Notes under the pieces: generated by a model
The model's input: only the letters and a program-made list of their open reading frames with translations
The model's database searches: none
Told to the model about the DNA's origin: nothing
Source of the DNA: Ectocarpus siliculosus
Lineage: Eukaryota; Sar; Phaeophyceae; Ectocarpales; Ectocarpaceae
Length of the DNA: 64,000 bases
Reading direction: 5' to 3'
Assembly: GCA_000310025.1 (NCBI GenBank)
Contig: FN649728.1
Location: 3,818,506-3,882,505 of the forward strand
Made by a program: the position numbers and the translations under genes
Shown here: piece by piece, positions 1,295 to 31,134 of the stretch
How the letters are laid out: each line of letters starts with the position of its first letter
How positions within the stretch are numbered: position 1 is the first letter of the stretch

Positions 1295-3356
1295 ATGGCC
1301 TCCCACGAGCAGGTCGAGGTGGACGTAGGCAAGGGACCTCTCGACTCAGCCGGAGATGGAGACGGGGAGAAGCACGAGGAGGAGGAGTATGCCAGGGTGG
1401 TGGAGCGCTTGAGGACGCTGGTGGGCTGCGAGGACCAAGACCTGGACGAAATCAGACGCCTCGTCGTTACCCGGCCGCCGAAGTCCGCATGCGGCGAACA
1501 TGATGCCGTCGAGCCTATACGGGCAGACCTCTGGAGCGCGATGCTTTTGGGCTTGAGGACGGAGGATCTCAACAGGTGAGCCGCTAGTCGTCTTGGCGTG
1601 ATTCATTTCCACACATGAGGAACGGGGCACTTCTGGGCGTATTGTGTATCATGCATGCAGGAGACTCGTATTTGATGCTCCGAGTTCCGTTGGGAGTGGA
1701 CGTACAGCAGTACTCAAGAGTCAAGAGTGGTAGCGCCAGATGTAGCGCCCCAATCGGCGGAGACCGAAGAAAAGATTCACACACCACTTTTTTTTTTTGT
1801 GGGTTCCCGCGACACGTTCTGTCCATCCCGACCGCTCCCGGCTCACGTGCAACTCGGGGCCTGGGTCGAACTAGGTTCGTGTATCTGCTGCTTTGTAATA
1901 TTGGCAAGTTTAGTATGGAAGTACCTTTATTATCGTGTCCGTTGAGAGGACTGCTGAATGTTTTTTGGAGAGGTCCAGAGCCAAGTAGATGATCATCCAA
2001 TCAGGACCACATGAGAGCCTTTGTCACGACTCGGTGTGTTTGTCCGGACAGCTGCCGGCCCACCGTGCAGCTCGGGCCTGGGTCGAATTAGATGGGATAG
2101 AAACCAACACGAGGGGCGTCTTCTACTCCTTCAGATCGCCTACTTGAGTCAATGCTGTGTGTATACTACAGCAGTAGTACATGACACTTCCTTTTTCTTC
2201 CGTTTTTTTAAATCAAGAACAAAAATCCAGTGGGGCGCATGCGTACCGCAGCCAGTAGTAGTATTGAGCTGGTCAGAAGTTACGCTTTTCTGCTAAATTT
2301 ACCTGCCTACATATACCGCGCACAACACTGCTGTGTGTAGCTCCTCTTTGTGGGCAACAAGCGTTGGTTGTGTATCGAACTCCTGTAAAAACAAGAGAAA
2401 CCTGCTGGTACGTGTCCTACTACTGCTGTACGCTTTCGTTTCGACCGGCTCTGGTACTGCTGTAGATGGCTCAACAGCACCTCGGTTCGACGAGACGCGG
2501 AGAGTTGCTCTACATGCACATTGTTGATCTCTTACACACTAAATAGTGGACAAGATCGAGCTATGTACCAGCCGTGTGTGCAGCTTTCCTCTCGTGCGAC
2601 CCCCCGCTAGTTCGCCCACAAATATGCATATATATTTTCTGGAGGTCGGCACGTCGGCCTTCTCCATCCCCGAGGCGTCATCTTGGCACGTGACGAAAAG
2701 TACAAGTGTACTCAATAGACCGGATCTTCCCATCTCGAGAGGCTGGAACCGAGGACAGAGAGAGCGCTCCAACACCACGTAACGCGTACAAAGCTTGCTG
2801 CCGTGCCTGCGGCGTGCCGAGCGCAGGTCGTAGAATCTGCCTCTCTAACCTTCACCTCAGCTTCCTGCAATTTGTAACCTGGTCGAAGCTTGTCTGAGTG
2901 GCAGCAAGGATTCAAGGGGATGCTGATGTCTCTCTCCGAGACCCACCGCTGTGTCTCTTGTACGAAGTATTTCGAAGTCGTGTTCAACGACCTTTACGAA
3001 CCAGAACTGCATAAAGATACTGCTGCTTTATCACGCTGCCGCCGACATGCGGCAAGGGTACATGTACATGACTGAGGCTGCTGCACCTCCCGTTTGCTGT
3101 AGTAGTGCAACTGCCGATTCCCACCTATCATGAGCCAGCCACCCATATTCCATCAAAAAGGTGGTGAGCACCAGCGTGGCGGCTTTATTTTGAGGGTTGT
3201 TTTATGCGTGGAACGGCCTGTTTCCACACGAACGAGAGCTGTACGTATCAAAAATCGCCGCCGGCATGGGACTTCGACCCTGTTTCGCGCTCACTAATTT
3301 TTGTGATGAGAGAACTTCTGTGAGGGTGAACACCGTGCAAACAGAAAAAAAGAGGT

Positions 3357-3410
<54 letters not shown>

Positions 3411-6400
3411 TAGAATGAACATCGCACAGAGAGAGTCTGCACTAGACACACGAGTAATCAACATCTACAGCAGTACAAGGTGGCGGCCAGCCATCTCCTG
3501 TGATTTACCAGTGCATCGCCAGCAATGATGTGTTGGTGCAAACAATATTTTATCTTCGACTCTTGGAGTGGCTTGCAGAAGCACCGCGCAGCACATACCG
3601 CTACGCGACGAAGCTGGTGTCAAACGTCATGCTGCAGAGAGAACAAGAGCTTGCTGTTGAATGACGTTATTCCCCTGCTCGCTGCGGTGCCGCTCCGGCT
3701 GTGCACACTGCAGAGCTTCGTATGTGCGAATCCTACGCCGACCAGCATGCAAGAGAAGGGTCGGCAGGCACCCTCCCTGCTGTGGTTTGGACATCCCCTT
3801 TGTGCAGGGTGTGCGCTCCCTCACGTGACGATCCTTCAGCAAGCACGGCAGGCTAGGCCAATGGCGACGCGATGTTAAGGGGGGCGGGCACGAAATCTAA
3901 CTCAACAAATATTTTGTGCATGAACTGCTCTGTTTAGTGGTGCTTCGGGTGTTTGGCGGTTCGTTAGTTTCCGACCACGACGACGAGCGTAGGGGGGGGT
4001 GTACTCATAGTCGTGCATGACAATAGTCGTTCGACTATTGACCTCGCATCCCTACAAAGCCGGGACGGAGCACGCCGGGTTCTCACCGGACCAGGCTCTC
4101 ACATCACCAAGCGCGAAGCGCCGTGAGGTATTCGGCGAGTCGCATGAAGGGTGTTCGGCATCCTGCTAAGGGTATTCGGCATCTTGTGCTTACTTCCTTG
4201 CGTACGGATGACAGCTGCGTATGACTTAATTTATTTTTTCTGGTGCTTTCACTTCCAGAGACAGTTATAAGCACTGTGTAACTGCCTCGAGCGTGCTTGA
4301 CCATTTTAACACAACGTGGTGCGATCATCCCCCTTGCGCGCGGAGTGAGGGTTCTCGACCCCGCACAACATGATCTACTCGACCACCATTATGGTTACCG
4401 CACAAAAAAGAGGTACAAAAAAAAAACGGTAACCTGGTTGCCGAGTTCACGAAGTGAATTGGCTTGTTTTTCAACGTCGTTGCCAAGCGACGAAAACCCA
4501 ATCCCGATGGCAAACACCGAGGGTGGGGCGACAACGAGCGTAGGGGAGGGGAATTACCGTTCGGGCGAGAGACCAGAACGGTTTATTTATTCGCTAAGAC
4601 ACAACTACCCAAAACTGCATCGAAATGCCTCTCTTTCCCCGTCGCACCCTCACTCTGTCAGTACATTTCTCTCTCTCCCTCTCTCTCTCCCTGCTTCTCA
4701 TGTTGTCATGTGTCGACACTTTCGCGTTCGTGCGCTCGACTACCGTTACGGTACGGGGTGACGGTAACGGCAACGACACGGCGCGGCGCGGCACAGTCAG
4801 CACGAGCTTGTTAGCACTTCGCTTCATGGAAGATCTTCCGAGGAAGACCATGCCGCTGGCCTTATCCACTTCCCCAAGGTAAGTTTGCATGCGCCCCAAC
4901 AACGAAAAAAGAAGCCAACTACACGTACGTAGGTACTCGAACATGTGCTGTTTTTTGTGTGTCTACCGATGGTGATGCGCGTGGGTGTGTGGTCGCCACG
5001 TCTATTCTGGCTCCAGTCTACGAACACCTTTCTCTTGAACGTATCCGCCGGGGTCACACAGGAGGAAGGAAGGTCAACATGACTTCTTTTTTTTTCGTTT
5101 GTGCTGGTTTGGTTTTTGGCCCCGTTTTTTTCTCCTGCGGTGCTTGCCTGTAGGGTTGGTTGTGGGGAAGGAGTTGGAATAGCATCGGCCGTGCTGTATG
5201 CTGGCACCCATATTTCTTCGTTTGTTTATTGGGTCCACGTGGGTGTGTTTCGTTTTTTTTTCTTTTGCGCGCTGTGGTCGGCAGCTCTCGACGATTCGCC
5301 AACAACACGAGCCACGAGCCACGAGCCACGCGATGCCAAGCCCCAGATGAACCTACCTACTTTTTTTCACGCGCTTCCGAGTAGCCAGCATCAAAGCGCT
5401 GCGGCTGCGTTTTTCAGAAAATATGCATCAAGATACCGAGAGACTAACTGTTCCAGATAATACCTCCATAGTCGAAGGTTGTGCTGAAAGTAATTGCACG
5501 CTGGCTTCACTCCTCCCTGGAGCGCGAGGCGGAACAAGGGGGAACCAAGGTTCAGCAGTTCCTTCGTTGTCGAAACAGATGAAAACACAAGCGTCGCGAA
5601 TTGCCGGCTTGCTTGCTGCAGCAGTTGCGAGTACGTCGCCGCATCGGCGCGCGCATCAAGATCAACCAACCAAGCAAGACGACAAGAAACGATTCCTCGA
5701 GCGGCGGGTAATCTGTAATCTTGTCCCCCCGTGCTTTCTTTCTCTGGTCTGTGAACGTCACCCTAGGAACGGGTACACAGCAGCAGTCAGCACTTTCGTT
5801 TTTTTTTGTTCATGGCGACTTGCACGCATGGTTGTGTCGAAAGCCCTTGCTCCCTACCTACAACCATTTCTTTTCACGATCGGGGCTCTTGGAATCTTCT
5901 TCTTTGTCGTGCAATAACTACAAAATGCTAGCACCATGAATTCCCTCCCAGACTCTTATTTTATCTGTGCAAGAAAGACTTGCTGTAGGTATGAGCCAAG
6001 AAAAATGAAACAATCAAGTTCGTCAACGCATTTGTTTCCGTTCTCATCGTGTCTCCCTTGCGATGTCTGTAATGACGGGTGGCAGGAAGACCGACGGGTT
6101 CTGGCGGCCGACATTAAGCGGACCAGGCAGGCGTACGCCATGTTCAAGCGGGAGGAGGTGATGCAGCTGGTCTCGCAGGTCCTCGAGAGGTACTGCGTGG
6201 GGCACGGCATCCGCTACAAGCAGGGCCAGAACGAGCTGATCGCTCCCTTCGTCATGCTTCAGGTACACGCACCGTATGGCACACGCTTCCTGTTGGGTAG
6301 GTGGGGAAGTTGGTCGTTCCTCACAGTACCTGCGCCGACTTGAGATGTATGGCGGAGTTTTCCATGTGGGTAAAAAACAATCCGATCCAAGTGCCTACCT

Positions 6401-8725
6401 ACCGCCTTGTCAGTTCCATCAGAAACACAAAATCCAACCTGTATCTACCCCTCCCCCCCCCCCCCCCTCCCGCCCCTCCAGGACCCGCCGCTGCCCGTGC
6501 CGGTGCTGGGGTTGATGTTCGAGTCCTTCATGAGCCGGTTTGTTAGCCGCTGGTTCGTGGACGACGAGATAGAGGCCCTCTTGGTGAGCTACAGGGTGTT
6601 CCGCGTGCTGCTGTTCTACGTCGACCCCGGCCTGGCGAGAAAGCTGGACGAGGCCGACTTCGTCCCGGAGCTGTACGCCACGGCGTGGCTCATCACCCTC
6701 TTCAGCAGGTAGGCCTGCTGTCTGCCGCGGTGTGCTGCTGCTGTGCGCTTGTGTGCGACATTAGAAAGTGGTGGTGGTGGGGGGGGGGTTGTGAGAGGTT
6801 TTATGTGGGATGTATTGCGTGGTGGCCCATGTCGCTACATGTCTTTTGTTGGATGTACTCACAGCATTGACAGATTATTGCAACCGAGGAATGTTCCTAG
6901 AAGATGGAGCGGGGGATTTTGGGGGTTCCGCAGTTGTAATAAATTGGGGGAATGGTGGTACCATCTTTGCCACATATTATTGTTTTCTGGGTATGCGTGT
7001 CAGCAACGGTGTTGGCCACGTGCCCTTGATTTATTCATCTTCCTTTTTCCCGGCTATCACGCCCTGGGCTATCACGCCCGTGCCCATACTACCTATCCAC
7101 CATCTATCACGCTGCCAGGCTTTCACGCCTCTAGGCTATCACGCCATCACAACAGCTATCACAGCACCAGCGTCAACACATCAGAGCTATCACGCTCCGG
7201 AACATCATAGATGCGGCGGGTTACCACACCCGTGGGCAGTTTACTGTATTTTATCGTTGCCGGCAAACTCGCCGCGCGGTTCTTTTATTTTTGCCGTCTA
7301 CAACTGCGCCGGGCGCACCAAGCCACCCAACACGCTAGCGTAATAGATCAAGAAAGTGGCTGCTGTGTCTGCGCGAATAAGACGGCTGGAGGAGATGGAC
7401 GAAGACCTCCGCGGGGACCAGGGACTAGTTCCTCTCCCCACGGGGAAGACAACGGGGGGGAAGGACGAGGTTCGTTGAACCTCCCCGATGTGGACCAGCA
7501 GGGAGGAACGAAAGCAGCCGCGGATGGAGGGGAACAAGATCCAACTATCGCCCTTGTCGACCTCCTCCGCCGGGTTGCCAACTTCGCCTCCCAGACTCCG
7601 GGACATGACGTCCGCTCAGGCACGTCTAGTTCCCAGCCCATAGAGTTGAAGCTGAGAGAGAGAGTCGAAGTACCTGAGTGGAATGATGCTTTCTTGAAGG
7701 ATCGAAGTGTGACTGTCGCGTTCCGAATTTTTACGAGTTGTTTCTCAGGGTGGATGGATGCAGAGGGTCTTGAAGAGATCATGAGAGGAGAAGAGATTCC
7801 TGTGGGTTCGTTGCACGTCGATAAGACTTGGTTGCGGCAGAGGTATGGCGATGAAAGTGTTCGAAAGGCCACGAGAGCCTGGATGTGCTTGATCACGAAA
7901 ATCAACGTTCAACCTATACTAGACCAGATACTAGCTTCAGAGAGTCCACAAGCAGGGTGGAGAGTGTTTCAGTCCTACTACACTACAAACAGGACGCATG
8001 AGAGAGAAATCCTGGACGGCACTTGGAACTGCCTTAGACAGAAGCATGGAGAGACTCTGGTCGACTACTGGGGAAGGGCGAATACTGTGTGGATGCAATT
8101 ACAGTCTTGTGGGGACAATCGAGAGGAGACGTTAATGTCGAGACACTTTGCACGTGGCTTGCTCCCAATGTACGACGATGTCAAAGACCGTATTCTGTTC
8201 CACCCCATGCTTTCGAGAGGTACTCTGGAAGAGACGCTGAGGCTGGTCGAGCACGAGCAGAGGATCAAACGGAGGTGTGGGGAGGGGATCGAGGACACGA
8301 GGCATGCGCCCGTCGCTGCCGGCGCAGGCCGGGACGGCGGCATGAGGAGAGCAGCTGCTGCGGGAGCGGATGGCGGACCATCTCATGAGCAGAGAGGTGC
8401 CTTCTTCTGCCAGGTTCACGGAGCGAACTCCTCCCACAACACCCCAGACTGCCATAAACTTCGCAAGGACTTCTTGTTCCACTACAACGACTTCATGGCG
8501 TTCATTCGCGAGAGGGACGGTATGCGGGGACCAGGTTTTCCTCAGGCCGGGGGGCAAGAATCGGGGCGCTTGTCGGGCGGATCATATCGAGAGCAGCTGC
8601 ACCAACTCGACCAAGGGGCAAGCTGGGGTCGGGGCCGCCCGTTCTGTCCCCGTTCTGCAGGGCCCGACGCTGATGAGCAGCGAGTCTTCAACGAGGCCTT
8701 TAGCACCGCTACTCAGCCGGCGACT

Positions 8726-8775
<50 letters not shown>

Positions 8776-11700
8776 CATCGGCGCTAATCCAACGACCTCT
8801 GCCTCCTCGACGGCGACCCCCTCTCCACCTCCGGGCGACACTCCTCCAGCAAGTGGCGCCCCTCTTCGTCTCTTCCTCACACGTAGTGTGAATTCTCTAG
8901 GCGAGTCTGATTCTGTGTCTGGAAATGAGATTAGAGTTGTTAGTGATGGGGAGGTGTCTGGTGTTCCCGTTGCTGGTATGTCTGTGCCTGATGTTCCTGT
9001 GGTTCCTGTGGTGAAGCCTGCTGTGACCTTTCAAGCCCCGGTATGGCACACTAGGATGTCAACACCCAAAGGTGGTGAGCAGTTGCAGGGAGACTCGGGG
9101 ACGAGTGCGAGGATGTTTGATGCGAGGGAAGGTGTTGCGTCTAAGTGTGATGTGGCTGTGTTGGGTCGTGCCGAACAAATGGATGTTGACGGTTTCCACC
9201 ACCGCGCTGGCTACTTTCCCCAACCCGTTTTGAGTTTGACTGCCAAGCAACAAGGGAACACCCTCCCCAGGGAGTTGGGACCCGGGGCCATCGCCGCTTC
9301 GCAGCCCGCTGCCACCGCTGCGCCTTGGCCTGTAGCCGCCGCCGCCGCCGCCGCCGCCGCACCACCGCCGCTGCCGCCAAGTCCCGGGGCACCCGTGCCG
9401 CCTGCATCCTCGCCGGATGTCGCCGCGCTGCCGGACCCGCGGATGACTGCGACGAGGACTACCGCCGCTCCGCTGCCCGCCGCTGTTACTACCGCCGCGC
9501 CGTTGCCGACACGCAAATCGGTGCCGACCTCCGAGGCCGATGGACCACATCCATCTCCGACGGCGCGTATTGAACGGCAAGCCGATGATTTGGCCTGGGA
9601 TGATACGGACCGGTGAGCTGGGGGAAGGCGAGCTGGGGGGCGACGAGATGGAGGGCGGTGGAGAACAGGATGTTTGGGAGGGGTGCATGTGGGAGATCAA
9701 GAACAACCTGCTGGGGGTCGCCCCTCCGAGCGGGGCACTCCGTTTGGGCTCGTGACGCGCCTTGCATCGCGCGACGACATCGAGTCTGATCTAACAATGT
9801 GGGTTTCGTGTTTAGTTTAGTTTTTTTTGCCTTTCTTTCTGGCAGCGCGTTTTACTTTTGCACTGGTTTTTTTTTCTTTGTTGCTGTTTTTATGTACATC
9901 CAGAATCATGGGGGGGGGGATGTCATGTGTGACCATGATTCTAGAGGGCATGAACAGCAATCGATTTGTTTTTGTTTCCCCATATGAACAGCTACCTTTG
10001 CAGGGGGGCTGTCTCCATGTTTGTTAGTTGGCATTTTGATATTCGCGGAGTGTTCTTGCATGAACTCTGGAAATGTAAGGGGTATGTTTCGGGATGTGAC
10101 AGCGGGGGGCTGTCTATATGTTTGTTTAGTTTTCTATCCGTTTCGTGGACAGCAACGGCGGCACCGATTTGCGTGTGCGCACTGTTTAGTTTGGTGCTCA
10201 ACGACTATACTGGAGCAAGGAGTTGGCAGGAGTGATTGTTAGGGCCTATGTGCTTTCCGAATACTCGTTTCTGTCGTCCAAGAAATTGTAACATTGTTTC
10301 GTTTGAGTTTTTGTGCCTACTCTTTGAAGCTGTTTTCCTCAGAATTGTCCGTCCCCATTCCGATGTTTTTCTGATGCAGCGCTGCCGCTTGTTTGGTATT
10401 TGTCTGAGAATGGTTCTGTGCTGTTGACGGTTTGAGATAATTTCCAGAGAAGGATGCATCGCCCAGCGGGGATGGAAACCACGGGCAACGGCGGTTTAGT
10501 GACAGATGTATGCGGGTTTGTGGATCCGGAATTGTTTTTTTGGTTGGTTTTTGGTTTTGGCTTGTTTCGGCGTTCTTTCGGATTTGATTTTGCGATTGAA
10601 ATTGCACCTGCAAGAATATTTGACGGCATGAAGGCTGCGTTGAAACTGTTCAGAAAGGATCATGATGATGGAATAGGGTTATTGGTTTGAATCCTTGCGG
10701 CCATGTCGCGAAGGCCGCTACTATGGTTGTGCTTGTTGTTTTTGTTTTTTCCTTCTGCGTGTGGCATTTTTTTTTAGGTAGAAGGCTCTATCTACATTGT
10801 TGTTGTCCCCTGTGTGTTTGGCGCGCCTCTCCATGTACCATCGGCCCAGGGGTAACCCCTCTATTTATATAAAATGCTATGTCTTCGATGCTGTTGTCAA
10901 TTGTCATTGGGGGGGGAATTGGTGTGTCATGACAATTAACTACAGCAATGTTACGAAGAATGGAATGTTTCGTCTGTTTTCGATGTTCGATTTGCAGAGT
11001 TCGGGATTTGACAATGCAGGTTGCGATTTTGGGGTTGTTTCCAGTACCCAAATGTCACAAGATGCGTTTATCAAGTAGAGGGTTGATCCCTTCACGTCTG
11101 GTGTTCGGAGAAGGGGGGCCGCAGCCAGACATGCATGGGTAGGGTATGCAGGAAGAAAATAAAAGGTATTGTAGGAAACTGAACGAACGGAGGTTTGTTT
11201 GTGTTTGAGGAAAAATAATGAAAGAAGAAGGGGGGCCTATCTTTGTAGCACTCCATGACTCCAATGTACCTCGCGCTGTCAACCACGCAGGCAGGGCACG
11301 TAGCGATGTCACATGTTTCAAGGAGATTTTGTTTCTGAGGCAGGTTTGGTGTTGCTCCCATGTTGCTGAGGTATTCTGGTTTGTAATTTCATCGTGTTTG
11401 TTGGACATTGAATTCAAGATTGGCCGATAGAAAATACTCGAAAGGGTTTTTTTGTATTAATGGTCTTCGTGTTGTTATGAGGATGAGGTATTATTGTGGA
11501 GTCGAGCATTTTTGTGCAATCATGATTCTTGTGCTACGTGTGGATTTGAAGTCTCCTCGGAAAGTGATTTGTCCCGGACGGTGTTGGATGTGTTTGCATT
11601 TGTGTTCGTTTTCATTTGTTCCTGATATAACCCATTGGCGGTTGTTTCCACGATTTGAGTTTTGGATGATTTGATATTGGGAATTTGAAATTCATGAGCG

Positions 11701-14700
11701 ACCGATGGAAATTGTTGGTGGTGTTCCTGGTTTAATGGTTTGGAACCGATGGGAATTGCAATCAAGTGTTTCTGGTTTAATGGTTTTTAGTGAATGTTTT
11801 GATCTTTGGAGATTCTGGATACAATGGAGACCGATGGAGATTCTGGTAGTAGGTGTTTCTGGTTCGTTTGCGACAAATGGAAGTTCGAACTAGTCTCTCT
11901 GGTTTAATGGTTTATGGTTGTTGCAAGAGGATGGGAGGAGAAACGACTGTTGCACAATGACATTGATTTCTGGAGTTTTTGGGATGGGTTTCGTGTGATG
12001 CATAATATAAGCAAGTTCGGGTATAATCTTGACAATGCAGCGAGCAGGGGGGCTGTTGGATGTACTCACAGCATTGACAGATTATTGCAACCGAGGAATG
12101 TTCCTAGAAGATGGAGCGGGGGATTTTGGGGGTTCCGCAGTTGTAATAAATTGGGGGAATGGTGGTACCATCTTTGCCACATATTATTGTTTTCTGGGTA
12201 TGCGTGTCAGCAACGGTGTTGGCCACGTGCCCTTGATTTATTCATCTTCCTTTTTCCCGGCTATCACGCCCTGGGCTATCACGCCCGTGCCCATACTACC
12301 TATCCACCATCTATCACGCTGCCAGGCTTTCACGCCTCTAGGCTATCACGCCATCACAACAGCTATCACAGCACCAGCGTCAACACATCAGAGCTATCAC
12401 GCTCCGGAACATCATAGATGCGGCGGGTTACCACACCCGTGGGCAGTTTACTGTATTTTATCGTTGCCGGCAAACTCGCCGCGCGGTTCTTTTATTTTTG
12501 CCGTCTACAACTGCGCCGGGCGCACCAAGCCACCCAACATCTTTGGTGCTAATTTTTTTTTTTTTTTTGCGTGGTTGTTAGGTCGTTGCTGCAGTTTTGA
12601 GCGGAACGCTTGTGACGGCGAGGATTTTGTTTTCGAGGGGGGGGGGGGGGGGCGGTGCGGCTCCGGGTGATTTTGCCAGCGGGTGAGGCTTTGTCGTCGC
12701 AGACTGCGTGGGATCGACACGGGTACTTCTGCGGATTAAGAAAGAGCCTTCCTTGTCCCGGAGGTTCCGTGTTTGGTCATGCCTACCCTCTGAAGAGTGC
12801 CTGTGGCGGCTTCTTGTGCGTCTCACATCCCACTTGACTGATACATGTTTTGTTTTTTTTTGCTTGTCCACAGTGTAGGGGGCAACGATGAGGCCGCCAC
12901 TTATCATAGTTCCGGTAGTCGGGTGGCGGAGGTTCTTGCGATCGTAGCGCGGGAGGGGGTGTTGTATTTTGGCTTTCGGTCTCGAGTGGCGATCTCTGGC
13001 TCATGGTCGACATATCAAAGAAGAGCCGTGTGGCACATATGGTGCTGGAAATTTACTCCCATTTTATTTCATCATCAGTTCGATTTTGTGTTTTCGAGCA
13101 ATAGAATATGACCTTGCCGTGCCGTCTGTCCGGGCGACAGGGCTGTTCCAGCATTAGCTCTGCCTCGTGCGTGGCGTTGGTTGTGTTGGGGCTTGCTGCC
13201 AACTGCGAACGAGATGTGGAAGATTTCGGGCATTCACCCTCCCCCCCCTCGTTTTTCACGTCCACGACTGCAGGAATTTGACGATGGAGCTGGTGGTGAG
13301 GCTTTGGGACGTGTACCTGGCGGTGAACGACCCCTCCCTCGTGTTCTTCCTGCTCGCCGCTCTCCTCGTCCGTAACAGGCAAGCTATAATAGCTAGCGAC
13401 CGAACAAGGTAACCACCGCCGTACCAATAACACCACGTACTACGCACACAGCAGCAGTAGCGGCAGCAGCAGCAGCAGCAGCCCTGTGATTGCATAAGAG
13501 GACGTGTGCATTGCATAGAGACGAGAGGAACGCTCCCTGTGGTTTGTGTATTTGTTCGAGAGGCAGACCCCAAGACAACAAACAGCCTTGGCAGAAGATG
13601 GCAACAGTTTCTCTCGCCTGCAAGTGCCATTGAACACGTGCAAAAAAGAGAAGGGCCTTCACCGTGGTGTCTTCTTTGTTTCACTCTTCGGCTATGGATC
13701 ACTCGCGGTGGCTCGCACGCCATATTTTCCTTTGTTTTCTTATCTCCGATTTTTGCCGTTCTATATTGGCTTTTACCCCGGTTGCCACACTACACCCATC
13801 CACATCCGTGTGTTAAGTGTTGTCCGTTGTCTTGACAACACGACGAGCTCTGTCTTCACAACACGAGGAGCTCTGTCGAGTACCCAACACTACTTTTTCC
13901 CAGCCCCTCATCGCCTGCACTAACAACAAACATGGCACGATAGGTACTCTTAAGTGTGATTGTAGCATACGGTACCTTTTTTTCTTATAACCTGAAAGAC
14001 ATCGATCGAGGAGGTCCTCGCTCCGGGAAGGCGTTGGTTGCCCCCCGCGCCACCCATATGACCGCTTTTTTCTACGCGTCTTGTTGTTGTGCTTGTTTTT
14101 GTAATGTTGCTGCGTTTCCAGGAACACGATCCTGGGGGTGGACCAGGCACACATGATGCCGGAAATGATCCAAAGCCTTACCGTCACCGACAAGGAGGTG
14201 GGTGTGCTGGTGGGGGTTGTGGCGGGATCTATGTCGTCATCCTGTTCCTCGATCATGCGTGTGTGTGTGGGTGGGTGTGTTTTGGTTTTCGGTTGACGTG
14301 TGGTTTCGTGTTGTAGGGCTGCCATGCCGCACAATCAACGCGGGCGCTTAGGCTGCTGTCGTTCGGCTGCACGTTTGGACGATTTTTGGGTGGCCGTGTT
14401 TGACCATGTTTCGGACGGACGTGGTCGACAGCAGCACTGCACAAGATTTAGCGGTGGTCGTTCAGTCATGATGCTGAATTTCGTGGCGTGATTTTTTCTG
14501 TGTTTCTCTCCGAAGGATTTCACTCAAGCTGTGCGATTGATTGCTGTTCGAACACTGCGCTTGAAATGACCGGAAAAAAATGAATAAATGTCAGGACCTG
14601 GAGGAACTCATAGTGCAGGCGCGAGAGATGCTGAGGAAAGTTCCCGAAAGCTTCCTCCAGACCGTTCGCAGCTGCTGCAGCGACCAGTGCAACGTGCCCC

Positions 14701-17700
14701 TGGACACCTCCCGCTCTCTCTTCTGCGAATCCGTCAGGTTGGTACGGGATACATTAGAGATAACTTTAAGAGTCCTTTTGTTTCTCTTTTCAAACCACAA
14801 CGAATTCATGTCTTTATAGAAGGAGTCCGGGATAAACAAAATCCATAGCGTTGCATAGCGGACACGCTTCCATTTTTTGTTTTTCGCACTCCGCGATTGC
14901 CGTGACTCGGAAGGGTGGTCGTTGGCCTGAATTAGGCCAAGCTCATGGACCGAACGTTCGATGTATCCGTCGCCCGCTCGTCGTGCACAGGCCGCGCCCG
15001 CACGCGCAAGAGCCTTTTTCTTACGTTGCCGCGAGACTCGCTTCTTGCTTCCCTTCCCTGTGTGGGGTAGCACCCAACAGCGAAAACACCTCCAGGGTTG
15101 TAGGATATTAAGTAATAGGATTCTTACATGAGCCCCTGCTCTTGCATGGTCAGGTCAAGTTCTTTCGTCCATACTCTCTTTAGTCTGGACTCCTTATCTC
15201 ACTCCATGGGGCTTGCAGAGGGGACGCGTATACTGCGTGCACCCAAACGGCTCTTTGCACATTTCGGCGCCCCGCCGCAGGTGCGTCTCGATCGGCCCGG
15301 GAGAGCTCCTGGACAGGATGGCCAGAAGGTCGCCGGGGGATGGGGAGGGCGGGGGCGGAGACGGTAGGGAGGGGACACGCGACGGAAAGGTCGCAGCAGC
15401 GGACGGAAACCGCAGCCCTTGCCCGATGCGGCCCGGGGCGGTGGACACGGTTGCGCTGGACATCCGGCCACTGCACGACTACGAGAACAGCGGGGCCGGG
15501 CACCTGGGAAAGGTGCGAGAATCATGTCATAGTGCTGCGAGAAACAAGGTTGGCAAAACAAGTTTTTTTGCTGAAGAGAGTGGCAGGAATGCGGGAGGCA
15601 AGACGGTTCCCAGGCGGCATGTCCATCATACAGGTATCATCCGCTTTTAACCCCCCCGGAGGCCCCGTATTTCAGCAGTACCCTGCCGAGCACCGCCAAA
15701 CATCTTGTCCTTGTCCTATCCGCGGAAGGGTAAGGTTTGACTCAGAGGCCCCAACACAGTTGGACATCGCGCGAAGCACGTACTTGGCCAGTTGCCCCCG
15801 CTTGTCGTTGCTGTTGTTGTTGTGGTCGGTTGTTTTCTTGAGGTGTGTGTGCTGTTGTTGGTGGTTTTGTCGTTCATGATTGTTGTGGATGTGGGTGCCC
15901 GGTTGACGTGCGATAGGCATGTACACTACTGGTGTTTATTTTCAGCGTGTATTTCTGGTCGCAATGCCTTGTCACCTAATTCTTGCCATGCACTACTGCT
16001 GGGGAAGCAGCGGCGTTGGAGCCGCTAAAACAATGGCGGCAGTCGATAGAGCTAAAATAGCCGTAGGCGCTAAACAAAGACAACAGTTCGATAGAGCTAA
16101 TTGGCCGTAGTCACTGGTCTGTGATACCCGTTCTGCACCGCGCCGTCTGGCACAGCACGTCTTGGTACATACAGTACTCCCATCGGTGCCGGGTTCGTGG
16201 ATTGGTTATCGGTGTGTCCCTGTAGTGTATGAATTCGAGCGAGGCGTTAGTGGCCGTCTGGCAAGATTACCGCTCGTAACCCCTAACTGGAACGGCCTGG
16301 GAAGGGGAGACGTAGTACGGAACATGGATTTCTACACAATGCACATATGTGTGCTTCTTTTGGGTAATCGCATTTTCACGGTACGGTACGGTGTTCCATC
16401 TCCGTGCAGCATGTTTTGGAACGCACCAAGATGTTACTGAAGTCAGCAGTGGCGATCGGCTGGTTGACTTCGACGAGAATCTTCAACCGTTGCGGTCGCA
16501 CACCGGTAGACTTAACAGTGCAAGAACATGTTTCATCCAGTACATTTTCTACAGATGCTGTTTTGGTTGACGGTGGTTCTGCTGATTTTGCCGGTACTCG
16601 TACCGTGCATCTTGTCTTTGCTTCACCTGGCGACGCCTGCAGCAGCCCATGGTATAAAACAGGTCAGAGAAAAAAAAGGCCGGTAGCACAGCGTCGTACG
16701 TTGATCCACGATTTCCCGCACGCACACACACTGTTTTTGTTGCCCGACGACCAAAAGACTGCAATCGAAGCCCAACCCAACCCATTCCAACCCGCTATTA
16801 TTTCTCATGACACCATCACACACGGCACACCCTCGTTGCCCTGCGACCACAACAATCCGATCGAACCCCCCCCCCAATCCACTCCACCACAAGACACACG
16901 GACACACGCTAATAAACCCCTGCCCTGTCTCTTTTTGGCCCCGGACGCAGTCTCTACGGCTGGATCCCTACCTGTTGGAGATGGAAGACGTCTTGGAGAA
17001 GTGGATGCAGCACTTCGACGGCACCCGGGGGACTCACGTGTGCCTCGTCGACTCTCTCGACCCCTCCACCGGCTCTGGCGCTTACGGCAGCAGCAGCGGC
17101 GGCGGGCACGGTGATGAAGCCGGGGGGCGTGGAGGCCAACAACAGCAGCAGCAGAAGCAGCGACGAGAAGAGGAGCGAAGACGGGGCGGGAGCGAGGCTG
17201 CTGAGAAGGACAGGGCGGGTAGAGAAGTAGCAGCAGCAGGGGCAGCAGCATCGGCGGGGGGCAGGATTATCGAGGACCCCTTGTGGAGACGTCTTTTGTT
17301 CGGGGAGGGGGATCCCATCACGGCGGGCGGGAGAGAGGGCAACGCGGATGCACCAGATTGGGAGTGCCAGCAGCAGCAGCAGCAGCCGGAACAGCGGCAG
17401 CCGTCTGATGGCAGCGATCGTGCCTCTCGTGGGGGAGGTTCAGGGGTAGTGGGGGTAGTCGAAGGCGGCCCGGGAGAGGGTTTCGGAGCTGCGAAGGTGA
17501 AAGAGGGGGGGGGGGGGGTACTCATGCTTCTGCATGCCTTCGCTGTTAGACCATTGACCACACATCCTCGAGAGGACGGAGCATTGTCCTCACATGACCG
17601 ATCACTGATGTCCAATCTTTCGTTCCAGGAGTTGGGGGGGGGGGGGGGGGATGGGTGCTTCTCCAACAATCATTTTCCGGTCATGGTTTTGTGTACAGTT

Positions 17701-20700
17701 TTTCGTTTTGTTTCTGTCGTTGTGCGTACATGGCTGGTATATGGGTGCATCGAGCCTTGGTGGCGCAGCAGGAACACATGAAAAACAGCAGCAGCAACCA
17801 CACGGACCGTAATGGTGCACTTCGAGTTTTTGTTTTTTGCAAATCGTGACCGAGGATCTCACCACGTGGATATTACCGCGGCAATATGATTTTTGGTCAG
17901 TTGATTGTTTTAGCTCCCGAACTAACCATTTTTTGCTCCCCAACAAACCAATTGCACGGCGCGTTGACTGGTTTAGCCCCCCCAGCTAACTAACCAGTTG
18001 CACGGCGGGTTGATTTTTTGTTTGCCCCCCAACGAACCAATTTGCGCGGCGCGTTGACTGTTTTAGCCCCTCAACTAACCGATTGCTGTTGGCTGCTGCG
18101 CATTTGTTGGCAGGCCTTCGCCCGGAGGCTCCACGCGAGAGGATTTCCGTACGTGTCCATCTTGGAGGGAGGCATGGAAGGCATCGTCCAACACCTCAAG
18201 AAGGAGGGGATGTGAGAAAAAACCCGCCCTCTCCCAACGAGGATCGCTACTAGCGCTGTGGCTTGTTCTGAAAAGCAGCGGCAGCTTTGTTGTAATAGGT
18301 TTCCTTTGTTGTACAGCGTGCGTAGGTGCCGATTGCGTGCGGCCGGGCAACGCCGCTACATGGCCACCGCTGGCGGCTGTCGAATGGCGTGCCAGAGGGC
18401 AAGAAGCAATCGCTTGCGAGAGACGCGTGTTCTCGAACGTTTGGAGGCCGGCTCCGCGTTTAGAACGGGAGCGGTGACGCTGCTTTGCCCGGACCGGCCG
18501 CCTGCGCATTCAGTCGTGTCGGAGCATCCCACTCCCAGGAACAGCACTCTGACGATCTATGGGTATCGACCCACCACCCGTAGGATGCATACCGTTCACA
18601 GGAAACAACCCTGCGACTACGTAGGAGTATCGACTCCCCCCCCCACCCCATGCCATCATTCCTTGCGGCAGCCCCCTGGAGCCTACGGTTATCGACCACG
18701 ACCCGGAAGCGTATCAGCGTTGGAGAGAGGCCCAAGCCCGCCGCCTGGCGGCAGCGCTGCCCCCGGAAGGCCAGCGTAGGGAATCCGCCAGCAGGTTTGT
18801 GTGTGTTTGTTTGTGTGTATGTGTTTTTGTGTGTGTTTGTTTTTGGGACTAGCATCGACCGCGCTAGCCGACTGACCAATGAAATCATGGTAGTCTCAGT
18901 GCGGCTGAAAACAGAAACTGCTTCGATGATCTTGGACCTCGTGAGGGGGCCTCATGTGTGTGTGTGTGTCTTGTTTCTTTGTGGACAACTTCCGTGGTGA
19001 CCGACTGACCGATGAAAAGACGCCAGTCTTGTAGCGGGATACCACAAACACGAGCATTTTCTATTCAAAGGGTGTGTGTGTGTTTTCCTATTGCTTTGTA
19101 TTACACAACGAATCCATCTATAGCCATAGATAATGAAGTATGTGTGTGTTTTCGACTTTGAATCGACCGCGCTAGCCGGCTGACCAATGCAAAAATGTGT
19201 GTGTGTGTCTACGTTTATTGTTTTGAATCGATCGCGCAAAGGACGCGGCACGCCGATATTGTTGTAGAGTGAAGCCAAGCCCTCACTGTAACACCGCCGG
19301 AAATATGCCAAACGCATGCCAGCAAGCCAGGTAAGCAGTGATTCCCCTGTACCCTGCCCTGCCCTGCCCTAACACTTGAGCCAAGATGGTAACAGCCTTC
19401 CTTTCACCTGTCTATGTTCCTGACTACGATGATAAGACGTGAAATGGTCACAAACAGCGAGCCACGCCAGTCAGAAATCGGGACCAGCGGCACAAACAGC
19501 AAGACAGCATGGATAAAAGAAAAGCCTGAAATTGTATTGAGCGTTGGTGAGGTAGCTAGCTGGACACCTGACGCGAAATATTTCCTCCTGCACCGAGACC
19601 AACGGCGAATGGGAAAGATAGCTCTAGAGCGATTGAACGCTTCTTTTGCCGCGCGTCACCCCCCCCCATTGGGAGCAGGGCAGGAGAGGCGTTTTCCTGG
19701 AGGGAAGAAGGGGACGGCAAAACCGGCGACAACAGCAACAGCAACAGCCACTACAGCGGTTCTTCCTCCGCCTCTCATCAGAACGACGGGCGCCAGCACC
19801 AGCGAGAGGAGTACGGCGGAGGTGGTGGGGGCGGGGCGGAAGGTGGAGGGGGAGTGGAGACTGGCCAATCGAAAGTCGGCGTTCTCGACCGGCTCGGGCT
19901 GGTGAGCTGAACCCATGCGTTTCAAAAATGTGGAGTGGTACAGCGGCATTTTTAATTTTTTTGGACGAAAGGGCGGGGCAGGTCGGTCGCCTTGAAAACG
20001 TGGGAAAGGCTTGTCGTTCTCGTGTGGAACGTTCTCCTGTGATGGGGATTCGTTTTTTTTTCCCTTCTTTTTTGCCTCGATGCGGAGGCGTGCTTTCCTC
20101 CCGTGTGAAACACATACACGGGCTTGGAGGGCCGAAAGACGAAAGTGGGCTATGATACACTAGTAACTCTACCGTCACGACTGACGCCTGTGCACGATGG
20201 AAAAATGGGTGAGGTTTTCATCTCGGGGCCTCGAGTCCCTGCAAGCCTTCGCGCCTTGTCCTCTTTTGTCGGTGTCTCCTGCGGAGCGCCTGATTGAGCG
20301 TTCTGATGACGTCACGGGTCGACTTGGGATTTGCACCAACCGGAACATTCCTTAAAACATATATATTCCTGAACTATTTCCGAAGTATTGGCCGTGCAGA
20401 AAATTGCGGGGACATGTTTTGCCGGTGTCCTCTCCGGCGGGCCTGTCGAAAGCAAATAAGTTCTGATTCCATGCACTAATCAAACCCCGTGCAAGGTTCA
20501 CGAACGAAAAAAAGATGTTGCCACCTCCCTGGATGGAATTAGGTACCTGTCGACCAGGGACTTTCCCCCACCAAAAATAAAATTCATTCTCAAACACAAA
20601 AATGGACCAAACAGATTTTCTTGCGCCCACACTCTTCTCTTACCCCACCGTTGCCCTTGTCCGCTCGGTCTTTTGGTCCGTCTCGACGCGAAAAGGTGCG

Positions 20701-25800: not shown

Positions 25801-27263
25801 CTGACTTTGACAGACAGAGCCTCATCGAGTCTGGCCACTCGTTTGATAGCATCATCGCCCTAACAGGGAGACAAGGTCAAGAAAAGAGAAACGATCGCGA
25901 AACGACAAATAATATGGCTGAGAAGGCGTAATCATATCGCTCGTTGGTTTCATTCCCCAAGAAGCGGAGCACTTTTTGCCAGGATGTCTTGAGCAACATT
26001 ACATGTGTAGACTACTGCTGTTGATTACACGCCTGCGAGACTACATTATTACCAAACTATTGTGGAAACACACATACATACATCGTTCACCTTCGTGTCG
26101 GTATCTTGCATGCAGAGCTCACTGCCCCATTCTGAAGCATGCTCAAGCAGTCCTCGGATGTCCGCAATATTCCTCTCTAGGGTCGCTCTGTAGGATTGCT
26201 GGTCCACGTCCGCCAATCGTGCCCATTTGTGCTTCACCCGGTAAAACGGGTGGCATTTCTTGAAGCAATCACAGCAGTACGACCCCGTGGCCGCCCCCTG
26301 GAACCTTGAACAGCTGAAACAGACCACACTCGCTGGTGCATTCCCGCATCGCGCGCAGCTATCGCGCGCGGGCTGCCAGCGAGGAAGGCACAGCAGATTC
26401 GTTGTAGGTTGTCTTGCGAAGCTTCTGGATCAGTGCCAATACTAGAGCGTAGAAGATCAGGAAGAACCCAAACATGCCGAGAGTTTACAGCTACATTCAT
26501 GTAGAGCGTGCCAAGAAGTTGGCACAGTCTTACACCTCAATAAACAATCATGAGACACAGCAGCACAGCTTCGGGGGGGTTGAATTAAAAGAAAGCTTCT
26601 ACTTGTTGTGTCTCCAGAGTTTCTCGATCAGGTTTGGAGGCAACAGGAAGCAAAACTTACACAGCAGTGCATCGCGATGGTACTGATGGTTCATGTGCTT
26701 CCATAGGATACGGATCATAGAAGTACGTACGATGGATGGACGTGAAATCGTCCACGCAATAGATAGGCCGTTTGCTTAGTGTTTACATACCTTCCGTCAA
26801 CTCCTTCCATCGTCGATTCTGAACCACAGCAAGAAACTGCCGAAACACCTACTGTAGCACGTACTATGCATTACAGGCTACAGTAGAGCACGATTTGTTC
26901 TCTTACTCTGGGAGGAGCGTGTGCGAAGAAGGCTGAATCGGAGTAAAATCCTGCAGGGTCGGCGTCGAGTAACGACATGTGTTGTTCGGGTTCTCCACTT
27001 TCAGATCGAAGCGACACAAGATTGTCGTCCTTTTCTCCTGCAGCAGGGCTCATCTCTTGCGGTCCCTGTAAGAGTGCTTGGGCCATCGCCTTGAAACACC
27101 GGGCGGGCACCGGACTTCGTTCTTCGGTCCCATCTACTGTCAATTCTCCATCTACGACTGCTGCTGCTGCTGCTGTGGTTGCATCCAACGGTCTCTCGCC
27201 CATTTGAATTTTCGCTTGCGCCAGAGATCGACGTGCAGTGTAGCCCAGAGAATGGTAAACCAC
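25801..27263 (-). pseudogene. WW / B-box-type zinc-finger gene with in-frame stop
   Basis: Exons in transcription order: 27263-26904 (start uncertain), 26818-26661, 26424-26091, 25859-25801; the last ends at a good GTATGT donor, so a further 3' exon is missing. Phases agree (0, 2, 0, 2). The second exon reads as a WW-like module: RRWKELTEG, then RPIYCVDD and TYFYDPYP. A TAA codon at 26785-26783 falls in its loop, in frame. The third exon gives a two-zinc B-box-like finger: CARCGNAPASVVCFSC, then YCCDCF, CHP and H of KHKW, followed by a helical segment (RATLERNIADIRGLLEHASE). Such WW/zinc-finger combinations occur in stramenopile scaffold proteins. The stop may mark a pseudogene, an assembly error or an unseen splice choice; GT...AG inside the loop would leave an intron of only 12 bases. 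Confidence 0.5.
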
Positions 27264-29121: not shown

Positions 29122-31134
29122 GTGGCGGCAGCGACAGCGGCAGCGACACGGATATTCCGGCGCTCCGCGGGCCCGAGGAACGGAGGCTCGCCCGCTTTGG
29201 CGAGCCGGCCGAACTCACCAGCCGCCGACTCAGGGAGAACCCTCGCCGGAACACGAGGTACGAGTCGTCAACGAGTGCCGAAGGTCTGCTCGCCCGCCAT
29301 GCATCGGCGGCCGGGCTGCCCACCCTGCCCATCACCAGCACGGAGGAGTACACCCACTGGATGCTCGCGTGTGTGGTCGACGTGGTGGAAGGGCTAGAGG
29401 CGAGGGCGGTGCAAGCGCTGCTGTGCGAGCGCGCGGAGGAGGCCAACATCGCGCGCCAAGAGGCAGAGGACTTCCTGCTGGGAGCGGAGGACCTCGTGCT
29501 CAACTCTCCAGACGCCTTCGTGAGGGCCCTGGCGTCGACCGAGCTGAGTACAGAATCCCCCATAGGCAAGCGTCCGAGTGACGTTGAATCCCCCCCCATG
29601 ACCGTAGCCGAGCGTTGCCAAGTCTGTGTACAGAGAGGGGTGGGAACAGGCCATGAGGGAAGAGTTCGATGGACACTTGGACACGGGAACGTTTTCATTC
29701 GTAGACGGTACGCCAGAGGGGCGTAGACCTGTGAGTTCTAAGTGGCGTTTTACTTGGAAGACGAACAAGGAGGGGAAAATCGAGAAGTTCAAAGCGCGTC
29801 TGGTCGCTAGGGGTTTTTCGCAAATTCCGAATGTGGACTACTTCTACTCATCCTCCCCTTGCCCATCATCCGCATCCATTAAACTGATGCTTGCGGTAGC
29901 CAATGAGAAATCATTGAAACTCAACCACTGGGATGTCAAGCAGGCGTTTACAACCGCTAAGTTAGACGAGGATGTGTTCTTGAGGCTCCCCGCGGGGTGC
30001 GGGGAAAAATCCCACAAAGTTGTGAAGGCTGAGCGTGCTATTTACGGCTTGAAGCAGAGCGGCAGGCAGTGGGGGTACCACGCTGCCGACACGCTTGTAG
30101 AAAACGGGTTCGAGCAGTGCAAGGCGGACCCGTGCGTCTTCCGCAAGATGAAAGACGATGTCGTGGTGATGATTATCGTGATTTATGTGGATGACATTTT
30201 GGTGGCTGGGTCTGATGATGATTGCAAGGAGTTGCTCGCTTCCCTCAACAAGGCATTCCCCACCAAAGACCTTGGAGAGTGTGTGTGGTTCGACGGGTGT
30301 GCCGTTGAGAGAGACCTAGAGGCTGGGACCCTTAAAATCTCCCAAACCGCGTACATTGACAGCATCGTGAATCGCTTTGATGTGCAATCGACCTCCCCCA
30401 TCCCTGCTTCCCCTGGTGCTGACCTAGGACCGAAGCGAGATGACGAAAGTGGAGGGGAGTGGCCGGTGAGAGAGGCCATCGGCAGCATGATGTGGGTGTC
30501 GACGTTCTCGCGCCCGGACATCTCGTTCGCTGTGCGTGCGGTAGCGCGCCACGCCCACGCCCCTGCCGAGAGGCACTGGAAGGCGATACGGAGGATCCTC
30601 GCCTACCTCAAAGAGACGAGGGACCTCGGGATCACCTACAAACGGGGATCGGGGCTGGGGCTGGCGGTGTACGTGGACGCTAGCTACGCCGACGCTGAGG
30701 ATAGACGTTCGGTGTCAGGGCTGGCAACAACGGTTGGAGGAACCGTCATCAGCCACGGTAGCAAGACGCAAGCTATCGTATCTTTGTCGTCTACGGAGGC
30801 AGAGTACATTGCTGCCGGAGAGGGTGTGAAAGAAGCTTTGTTCGTGCGTGCAGTGCTTTCGTTTATTGCCCCAGAGACCAGCGGCAGTAGCATTCAGGTC
30901 CTTGAGGACAATCAGGGGGCCATGGCTTTGGTGCAGAACCCCCTTAGCTCAGCGCGTAGCAAGCACATCGACGTGCGGTACCACTTCATTCGTGGATTGT
31001 TTAGGTCGGGTGACATCTCGATCAAGTTTGTGTCGACGTCGGAGCAACATGCAGACATGCTCACCAAGGCTCTTAGCAAGAGCAACCTGCAGTACCACCG
31101 GAAAAAGCTGATGAATTTGCCGGAGCTTCTGTAG
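28358..31134 (+). pseudogene. Copia pol remnant: integrase end, RT, RNase H
   Basis: The first frame (to ~29610) has the end of a Copia integrase (LWAEATAWACNALNCTS, KSPYEMWHG, KAKKCFYLGP) and a long Ser/Ala/Gly-rich linker with (AGC)n tracts. The second frame (from ~29626) carries RT: WEQAMREEFDGHL, WDVKQAFTTAKLDEDVFL, AIYGLKQSGRQW and the catalytic YVDD. RNase H follows (YVDASYAD, SSTEAEY, KHIDVRYHFIR), ending in a TAG at 31134. The two frames do not join: the upstream frame runs past the start of RT, and the RT frame has a TAG at 29605-29607, so at least one indel lies between 29605 and 29626. The RT/RNase H half is otherwise intact. Confidence 0.9.

Follow-up and report, generated by a model that had tools for sequence, protein, structure and literature searches.

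A probable TBC1D23-family protein with a putative dual-finger Rab GAP site in the brown alga Ectocarpus siliculosus

The window, by which we mean the whole 64,000-nucleotide stretch of Ectocarpus siliculosus DNA analyzed here, from position 3818506 to 3882505 of contig C3, contains a gene whose predicted product is probably a TBC1D23-family protein (TBC domain, connecting helices, and rhodanese-like domain) that keeps a dual-finger GAP site and would act through it as a Rab GAP. The nearest other relative of this gene in the same genome, on contig C26, encodes both fingers as well. On the best reading of these sequences, brown algae keep TBC1D23-family proteins that resemble working Rab GAPs. 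TBC1D23 is described as a TBC protein that lacks GAP activity and works as a tether (PMC7274447); the protein is also linked to pontocerebellar hypoplasia (PMC6595604). Were the fingers intact in a relative alive today, it would reveal the role that the family may have had before catalysis was lost and would point to a Rab pathway, and the algal and animal proteins would form a natural before-and-after pair for testing the change from GAP to tether. Within the literature searched (titles and the beginnings of abstracts, a set outside which the main survey of TBC evolution lies, doi 10.1091/mbc.E12-07-0557), we recognized no statement on fingers being kept in TBC1D23 outside animals.

Gene model and the exon with the finger motifs

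Reading the plus strand from position 1295, GT-AG exons can be joined with consistent phases into a gene of 10 or 11 exons that runs from 1295 to at least 18211 (Table 1) and has a predicted product with TBC and rhodanese-like domains. The protein comprises 660 residues if it stops in exon 10, or 700 residues and a frame that is still open if exon 11 is included. The model is least secure at exon 2, at its two ends (start codon and 3′ end), and at the donors of exons 7 and 11. The start codon in exon 1 is a prediction; an in-frame stop lies just 5′ of 1244, upstream of the exon, and a splice acceptor upstream of the coding part of exon 1 is possible. Splicing exon 1 straight to exon 3 gives the wrong frame; exon 2 is thus needed, and it was found in place of that junction. 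Exons 3 through 10 are phase-consistent, and the C26 paralog shows the identical order of TBC domain, helix, and rhodanese domain, the joining of exons having been read from the sequence only. A frameshift or a chance open frame is ruled out by the phases, the Pfam matches, and the paralog.

Table 1. Exons of the window gene, the element inserted in its fourth intron, and the second gene of the family (positions are those of the window unless a contig is named)
Feature	Position	Strand	Content
Exon 1, coding part	1295..1575	+	Low-complexity N terminus, then the first helix of the TBC domain (IRADLWSAMLLGL); GT donor; outgoing phase 2
Exon 2, least certain	4815..4878 (64 nt)	+	Links exons 1 and 3 in frame; donor gtaagt; polypyrimidine tract weak
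Exon 3	6086..6262	+	LAADIKR, R-finger motif (R127); YKQG, Q-finger motif (Q161)
Exon 4	6482..6708	+	Middle helices of the TBC domain; Pfam RabGAP-TBC, 30 bits
LTR retroelement inside intron 4, not in the protein	6847..12539		LTRs at 6847-7332 and 12054-12539
Exon 5	13274..13408	+	C-terminal helices of the TBC domain (WDVYLAVNDPSLVFFLLAALL); phases 2/2
Exon 6	14122..14197	+	Helix after the TBC domain
Exon 7	14595..14737	+	DLEELIVQAREMLRKVPESF, aligns with a TBC1D23 helix; weak donor gttggt
Exon 8	15281..15512	+	Linker and first rhodanese strand (VALDIRPLHDY..AGHLGK)
Exon 9	16951..17496	+	Rhodanese middle (THVCLVDSLD) and long low-complexity insert
Exon 10	18114..18211	+	Last rhodanese helix (ARGFPYVSILEGGMEGIVQHL); ends at TGA 18213-18215 or splices at 18211
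Exon 11, possible	18672..18794	+	In-frame continuation IPLEPTVIDHDPEAYQRWREAQARRLAAALPPEGQ
Second TBC1D23-family gene	C26:5602476-5607027 (= L022 2476-7027)		Layout like that of the window gene; modeled as seven phase-0 exons, 747 residues

The spliced protein matches Pfam RabGAP-TBC at residues 75 through 288 (89.7 bits, E = 2.8e-25), and RabGap-TBC_2 is a second TBC model above its cut-off (31.1 bits); the rhodanese match at residues 626 through 652 is subthreshold (14.8 bits against a Pfam cut-off of 22.2). Taken singly, exon 3 matches RabGAP-TBC weakly (E = 4.5e-4, 20.4 bits; curated cut-off 25.2), the open frame around exon 5 (13215-13412) scores 19.6 bits, under the cut-off, and the top PDB match of exon 4 is TBC1D23 with an E value of only 0.042.

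Both finger motifs lie in exon 3, the translation of which is EDRRVLAADIKRTRQAYAMFKREEVMQLVSQVLERYCVGHGIRYKQGQNELIAPFVMLQ. The exon spans 59 codons between an acceptor (ggcag/GAAGAC) at 6086 and a donor (CTTCAG/gtacac) after 6262 and is in phase 0 on both sides. The six frames of the window contain a single match to the search pattern of [ILVM]xxDxxR, 25 to 45 residues, and YxQG, and 100 first-order Markov resamples of the window yield three between them; the motifs by themselves are therefore about a 1-in-30 event, and it is the domain context and the splice phases that carry the case. An initial annotation of the region had proposed an exon with both motifs here, and this is borne out by the coordinates, the splice sites, the Pfam match of the spliced protein, and the paralog. 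Its DIKRT for the arginine finger is present, but the motif is better written LxxDxxR, with R127 as the finger. The window protein has the dual-finger pattern of IxxDxxR and YxQ inside its TBC domain.

The C26 protein has both fingers in the same aligned columns, as DVERT (R211) and YKQG (Q245). The two algal proteins match at 32% over 334 residues (E = 3e-45), and the fingers are kept in both despite identity at only 96 of 266 aligned positions; the residues FKR and YKQG around the fingers are common to the two. Intron positions around the Q finger differ between the genes, which makes the duplication look old.

Catalytic residues and tether features

We aligned 12 TBC rows: the two algal proteins, human TBC1D23 as the single animal TBC1D23, and nine others, namely six further human TBC segments taken from HMMER alignments, a provisional human TBCK sequence, and exons from the algal contigs C78 and C2 (the C2 row contains upstream residues that are possibly intronic). 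These contigs come from the 189-Mb, 492-contig assembly that was searched, in which 10 other contigs have TBC exon matches; C26, C78, and C2 were used, and C340, C475, C19, C1, C17, C15, and C29 were left out. Eleven of the 12 rows have both fingers, the provisional TBCK row among them. The sole exception is human TBC1D23, where Q88 and T124 align to exactly the R- and Q-finger columns (residue numbers of the solved chain, with Q88 as the anchor).

That animal TBC1D23 has lost both fingers, as the initial annotation stated, agrees with published accounts. PMC7274447 gives Q88 and T124 at the finger positions of the human protein and finds it without obvious GAP activity when tried against a panel of Rabs; loss of the fingers is stated for Drosophila Tbc1 and its orthologues in PMC6595604. 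That paper also cites an observation that points the other way: the R50A mutation abolished a phenotype seen on overexpression in macrophages. RABGAP1, TBC1D14, and TBC1D17 have the IxxDxxR and YxQ motifs in the same columns as the algal proteins, and Gyp1 likewise has dual-finger motifs (PMC7274447).

Judging from these residues, the TBC1D23-family protein would most likely work as an ordinary Rab GAP of the dual-finger kind. If expressed, the window protein would bind a GTP-loaded Rab through its TBC domain on trans-Golgi or endosomal membranes; R127 would stabilize the transition state, Q161 would take the place of the Rab's own glutamine, and the resulting GTP hydrolysis would terminate the Rab signal. 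Human TBC1D23 has a C399x5R405 loop in its rhodanese domain (PMC7274447), whereas both algal proteins have D instead of the arginine (after C476 and C601). Because the arginine of CxxxxxR is replaced, the algal rhodanese domain would be a packing or docking module. A long low-complexity insert sits, by eye, at about the same rhodanese site in both paralogs (window 16951-17496; L022 6572-7027), after the strand that holds the former Cx5R loop.

Dual fingers do not prove activity: according to PMC3747267, TBCK has them and a Rab screen found no partner for it. Finger loss or retention also varies within TBC families, since in Toxoplasma a recognizable dual-finger site is present in 10 of 18 TBC proteins (PMC11101121). 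The algal proteins could be tethers or adaptors like animal TBC1D23, with motifs that persist for Rab binding or by chance. We consider this unlikely. Golgins with a GRIP domain, which such a tether might bind, are encoded at four places in the genome, and golgin-pocket positions 237, 239, and 275 stay hydrophobic (L, V, L in the window protein; F, I, L in the C26 protein), with L275 kept. However, the human triple mutants I236/I237/V239 and L278/Y281/Y282 nearly abolish binding to golgin-97, and golgin binding by TBC1D23 is established for human, fly, and worm (PMC7274447). At these six positions of the golgin-97/245-binding set, the window protein has A, L, V, Q, E, and M and the C26 protein A, F, I, T, D, and L; two of the six are alike and four are not, including all of L278, Y281, and Y282 as well as I236, and the residue set of the animal tether form is not kept in full in the algal proteins. 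Human E179 is D in the window protein and H in the C26 protein.

A genome-wide search at E ≤ 10, run without a positive control and with a provisional 3′ end of the window gene, gives no hit for the C-terminal vesicle-capture domain TBC1D23_C (PF19430); strumpellin of WASH likewise has no match in the genome (also without a positive control). Both catalytic residues are kept in two divergent paralogs. The algal proteins thus retain the requirements for a GAP, while the only tether feature open to a proper test is partly missing from them, and we prefer the reading as a Rab GAP.

Relationship to TBC1D23 and TBCK

Among all solved chains, the top match of the spliced window protein is human TBC1D23 (E = 2.9e-14), followed by TBC1D17 (1.1e-7). 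The C26 protein is closer to human TBC1D23 than the window protein is (top solved match, E = 9.5e-29) and matches it in two stretches, the second of which is the rhodanese domain; that stretch is weak alone (i-Evalue 0.1) and under the Pfam cut-off (16.4 vs. 22.2 bits). A joint profile of the two algal proteins, built with the low-complexity inserts left out, matches TBC1D23 at 122.5 bits (E = 1.6e-34), with the next chain at 49.9 bits (1.6e-12), so that canonical dual-finger RabGAPs are much weaker matches than TBC1D23. RABGAP1, TBC1D14, TBC1D17, and Gyp1 are not known to carry a rhodanese domain. The joint profile also matches the rhodanese domain of human TBC1D23 (PDB: 6jl7; i-Evalue 1e-6), which places a rhodanese-like domain C-terminal to the algal TBC domain although Pfam Rhodanese alone stays under its cut-off. 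TBC domain, DIEDL-type helix, and rhodanese-like domain follow one another in the algal proteins in the same order as in human TBC1D23 and Drosophila Tbc1.

In the reverse direction, 194 residues of human TBC1D23 searched against the whole genome give three matches; C26 heads the list (E = 1.8e-5), and the window gene comes next (E = 0.28). The window, C26, and human TBC1D23 rows form a clade with 94 to 98% bootstrap support (96/94, 94/92 once the finger columns are removed, and 98/97 when the two longest rows are taken out). Inside this three-member clade, an approximately unbiased (AU) test allows C26 to pair with human TBC1D23 and leave the window protein outside (p = 0.224).

The window gene could instead be of the TBCK type (kinase, TBC, rhodanese), its N-terminal pseudokinase lost or hidden, in which case intact fingers would be unremarkable. 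TBCK is a subunit of the FERRY complex. It combines a TBC and a rhodanese domain and keeps the key GAP residues but differs in its N-terminal kinase-like domain (PMC3747267). With the provisional TBCK sequence, the window protein alone scores slightly higher for TBCK (61.7 bits) than for TBC1D23 (58.6 bits), and provisional TBCK finds the window exon in the genome at E = 3.5e-5, against 0.28 for TBC1D23; the exon is second among four matches, all weak, and the same search with the provisional sequence yields no clear TBCK gene. A possible splice acceptor upstream of the coding part of exon 1 also speaks for this type. The scores of the two families differ in specificity. Scored with the row of human TBC1D23, C26 and the window protein (89 and 59 bits) stand far above the next row (27.7), whereas provisional TBCK is flat across the window protein, RABGAP1, and C26 (63, 61, and 59) and thus not specifically close to the algal sequences. 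A pairing of the window protein with provisional TBCK is rejected (AU test, p = 0.010); a group of the window protein, C26, and provisional TBCK without TBC1D23 is not (p = 0.059). The joint profile matches both the TBC and the rhodanese domain of TBC1D23. The window's first 1.3 kb together with the 10 kb before it hold 49 plus-strand frames of at least 70 amino acids; six were scanned and have no Pfam match, and the remaining 43, read by eye, include none that looks like a kinase. On this evidence we regard a TBCK-type gene as quite improbable.

Because the TBCK scores are unspecific and those of TBC1D23 specific, we assign both algal genes to the TBC1D23 family, with firm confidence for C26 and with greater caution for the window gene. 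The resemblance of the rest of the gene to TBC1D23, which the initial annotation had asserted, holds up in the order of the domains and in the rhodanese match of the joint profile. Its subfamily assignment stands in part: in the trees the TBC domain clusters with those of human TBC1D23 and C26, and it is most similar to TBC1D23, though the window protein alone scores about equally for provisional TBCK, and the wider grouping of both algal proteins with TBCK survives the AU test. A return of R and Q in an ancestral TBC1D23 that had been inactive, or an exchange of the exon with another TBC gene, is very improbable on a sampling of one algal genome plus human, as FKR and YKQG are shared by the paralogs, the clustering with TBC1D23 holds without the finger columns, and the duplication looks old from the introns around the Q finger.

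Taking the algal proteins as TBC1D23-family members, the dual-finger form would be ancestral by parsimony, the fingers being present in the nine other rows and in both algal paralogs, as seen from one algal genome and one animal sequence. On the same parsimony argument and this one algal genome, the animal tether may have been derived by loss of catalysis. We offer a broader proposal only tentatively, and think it rather less than an even prospect: the TBC1D23 family of brown algae, and perhaps of stramenopiles in general, would consist of active dual-finger Rab GAPs that lack the golgin pocket and the WASH- and cargo-binding C terminus of the animal protein; the animal tether would have arisen by losing catalysis and gaining golgin and cargo binding, and in the two algal paralogs the GAP that came before it would survive to the present.

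Repeats and other open frames

The retroelement in intron 4 looks young; its LTRs are identical, at 486 nt each (TGTTGG...CCAACA), and it is flanked by a 5-bp target duplication (TCTTT). Its 801-aa open frame (7211-9616) has no Pfam match at 0.01. A Copia-type reverse transcriptase open frame lies at 29608-31134 (Pfam RVT_2, E = 3.6e-49). On the minus strand, the Cys/His-rich open frame at 26049-26429 (CARCGNAPASVVCFSCSRF...YCCDCFKKCH) resembles a B-box-like zinc finger by eye and has no Pfam match at 0.01.

By eye, introns of both TBC1D23-family genes share a run of G with a motif similar to GTACTCATAGTCGTGCATG...GTTAGACCATTGACC after it, at about 3990-4060 and 17500-17560 in the window and about 6070-6130 and 6190-6250 in the C26 locus (L022); it may be a dispersed repeat. 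The EsV-1-7 repeat is greatly expanded in brown algae, and at least 150 matches to it were counted in this genome (150 of 880 candidates scored).
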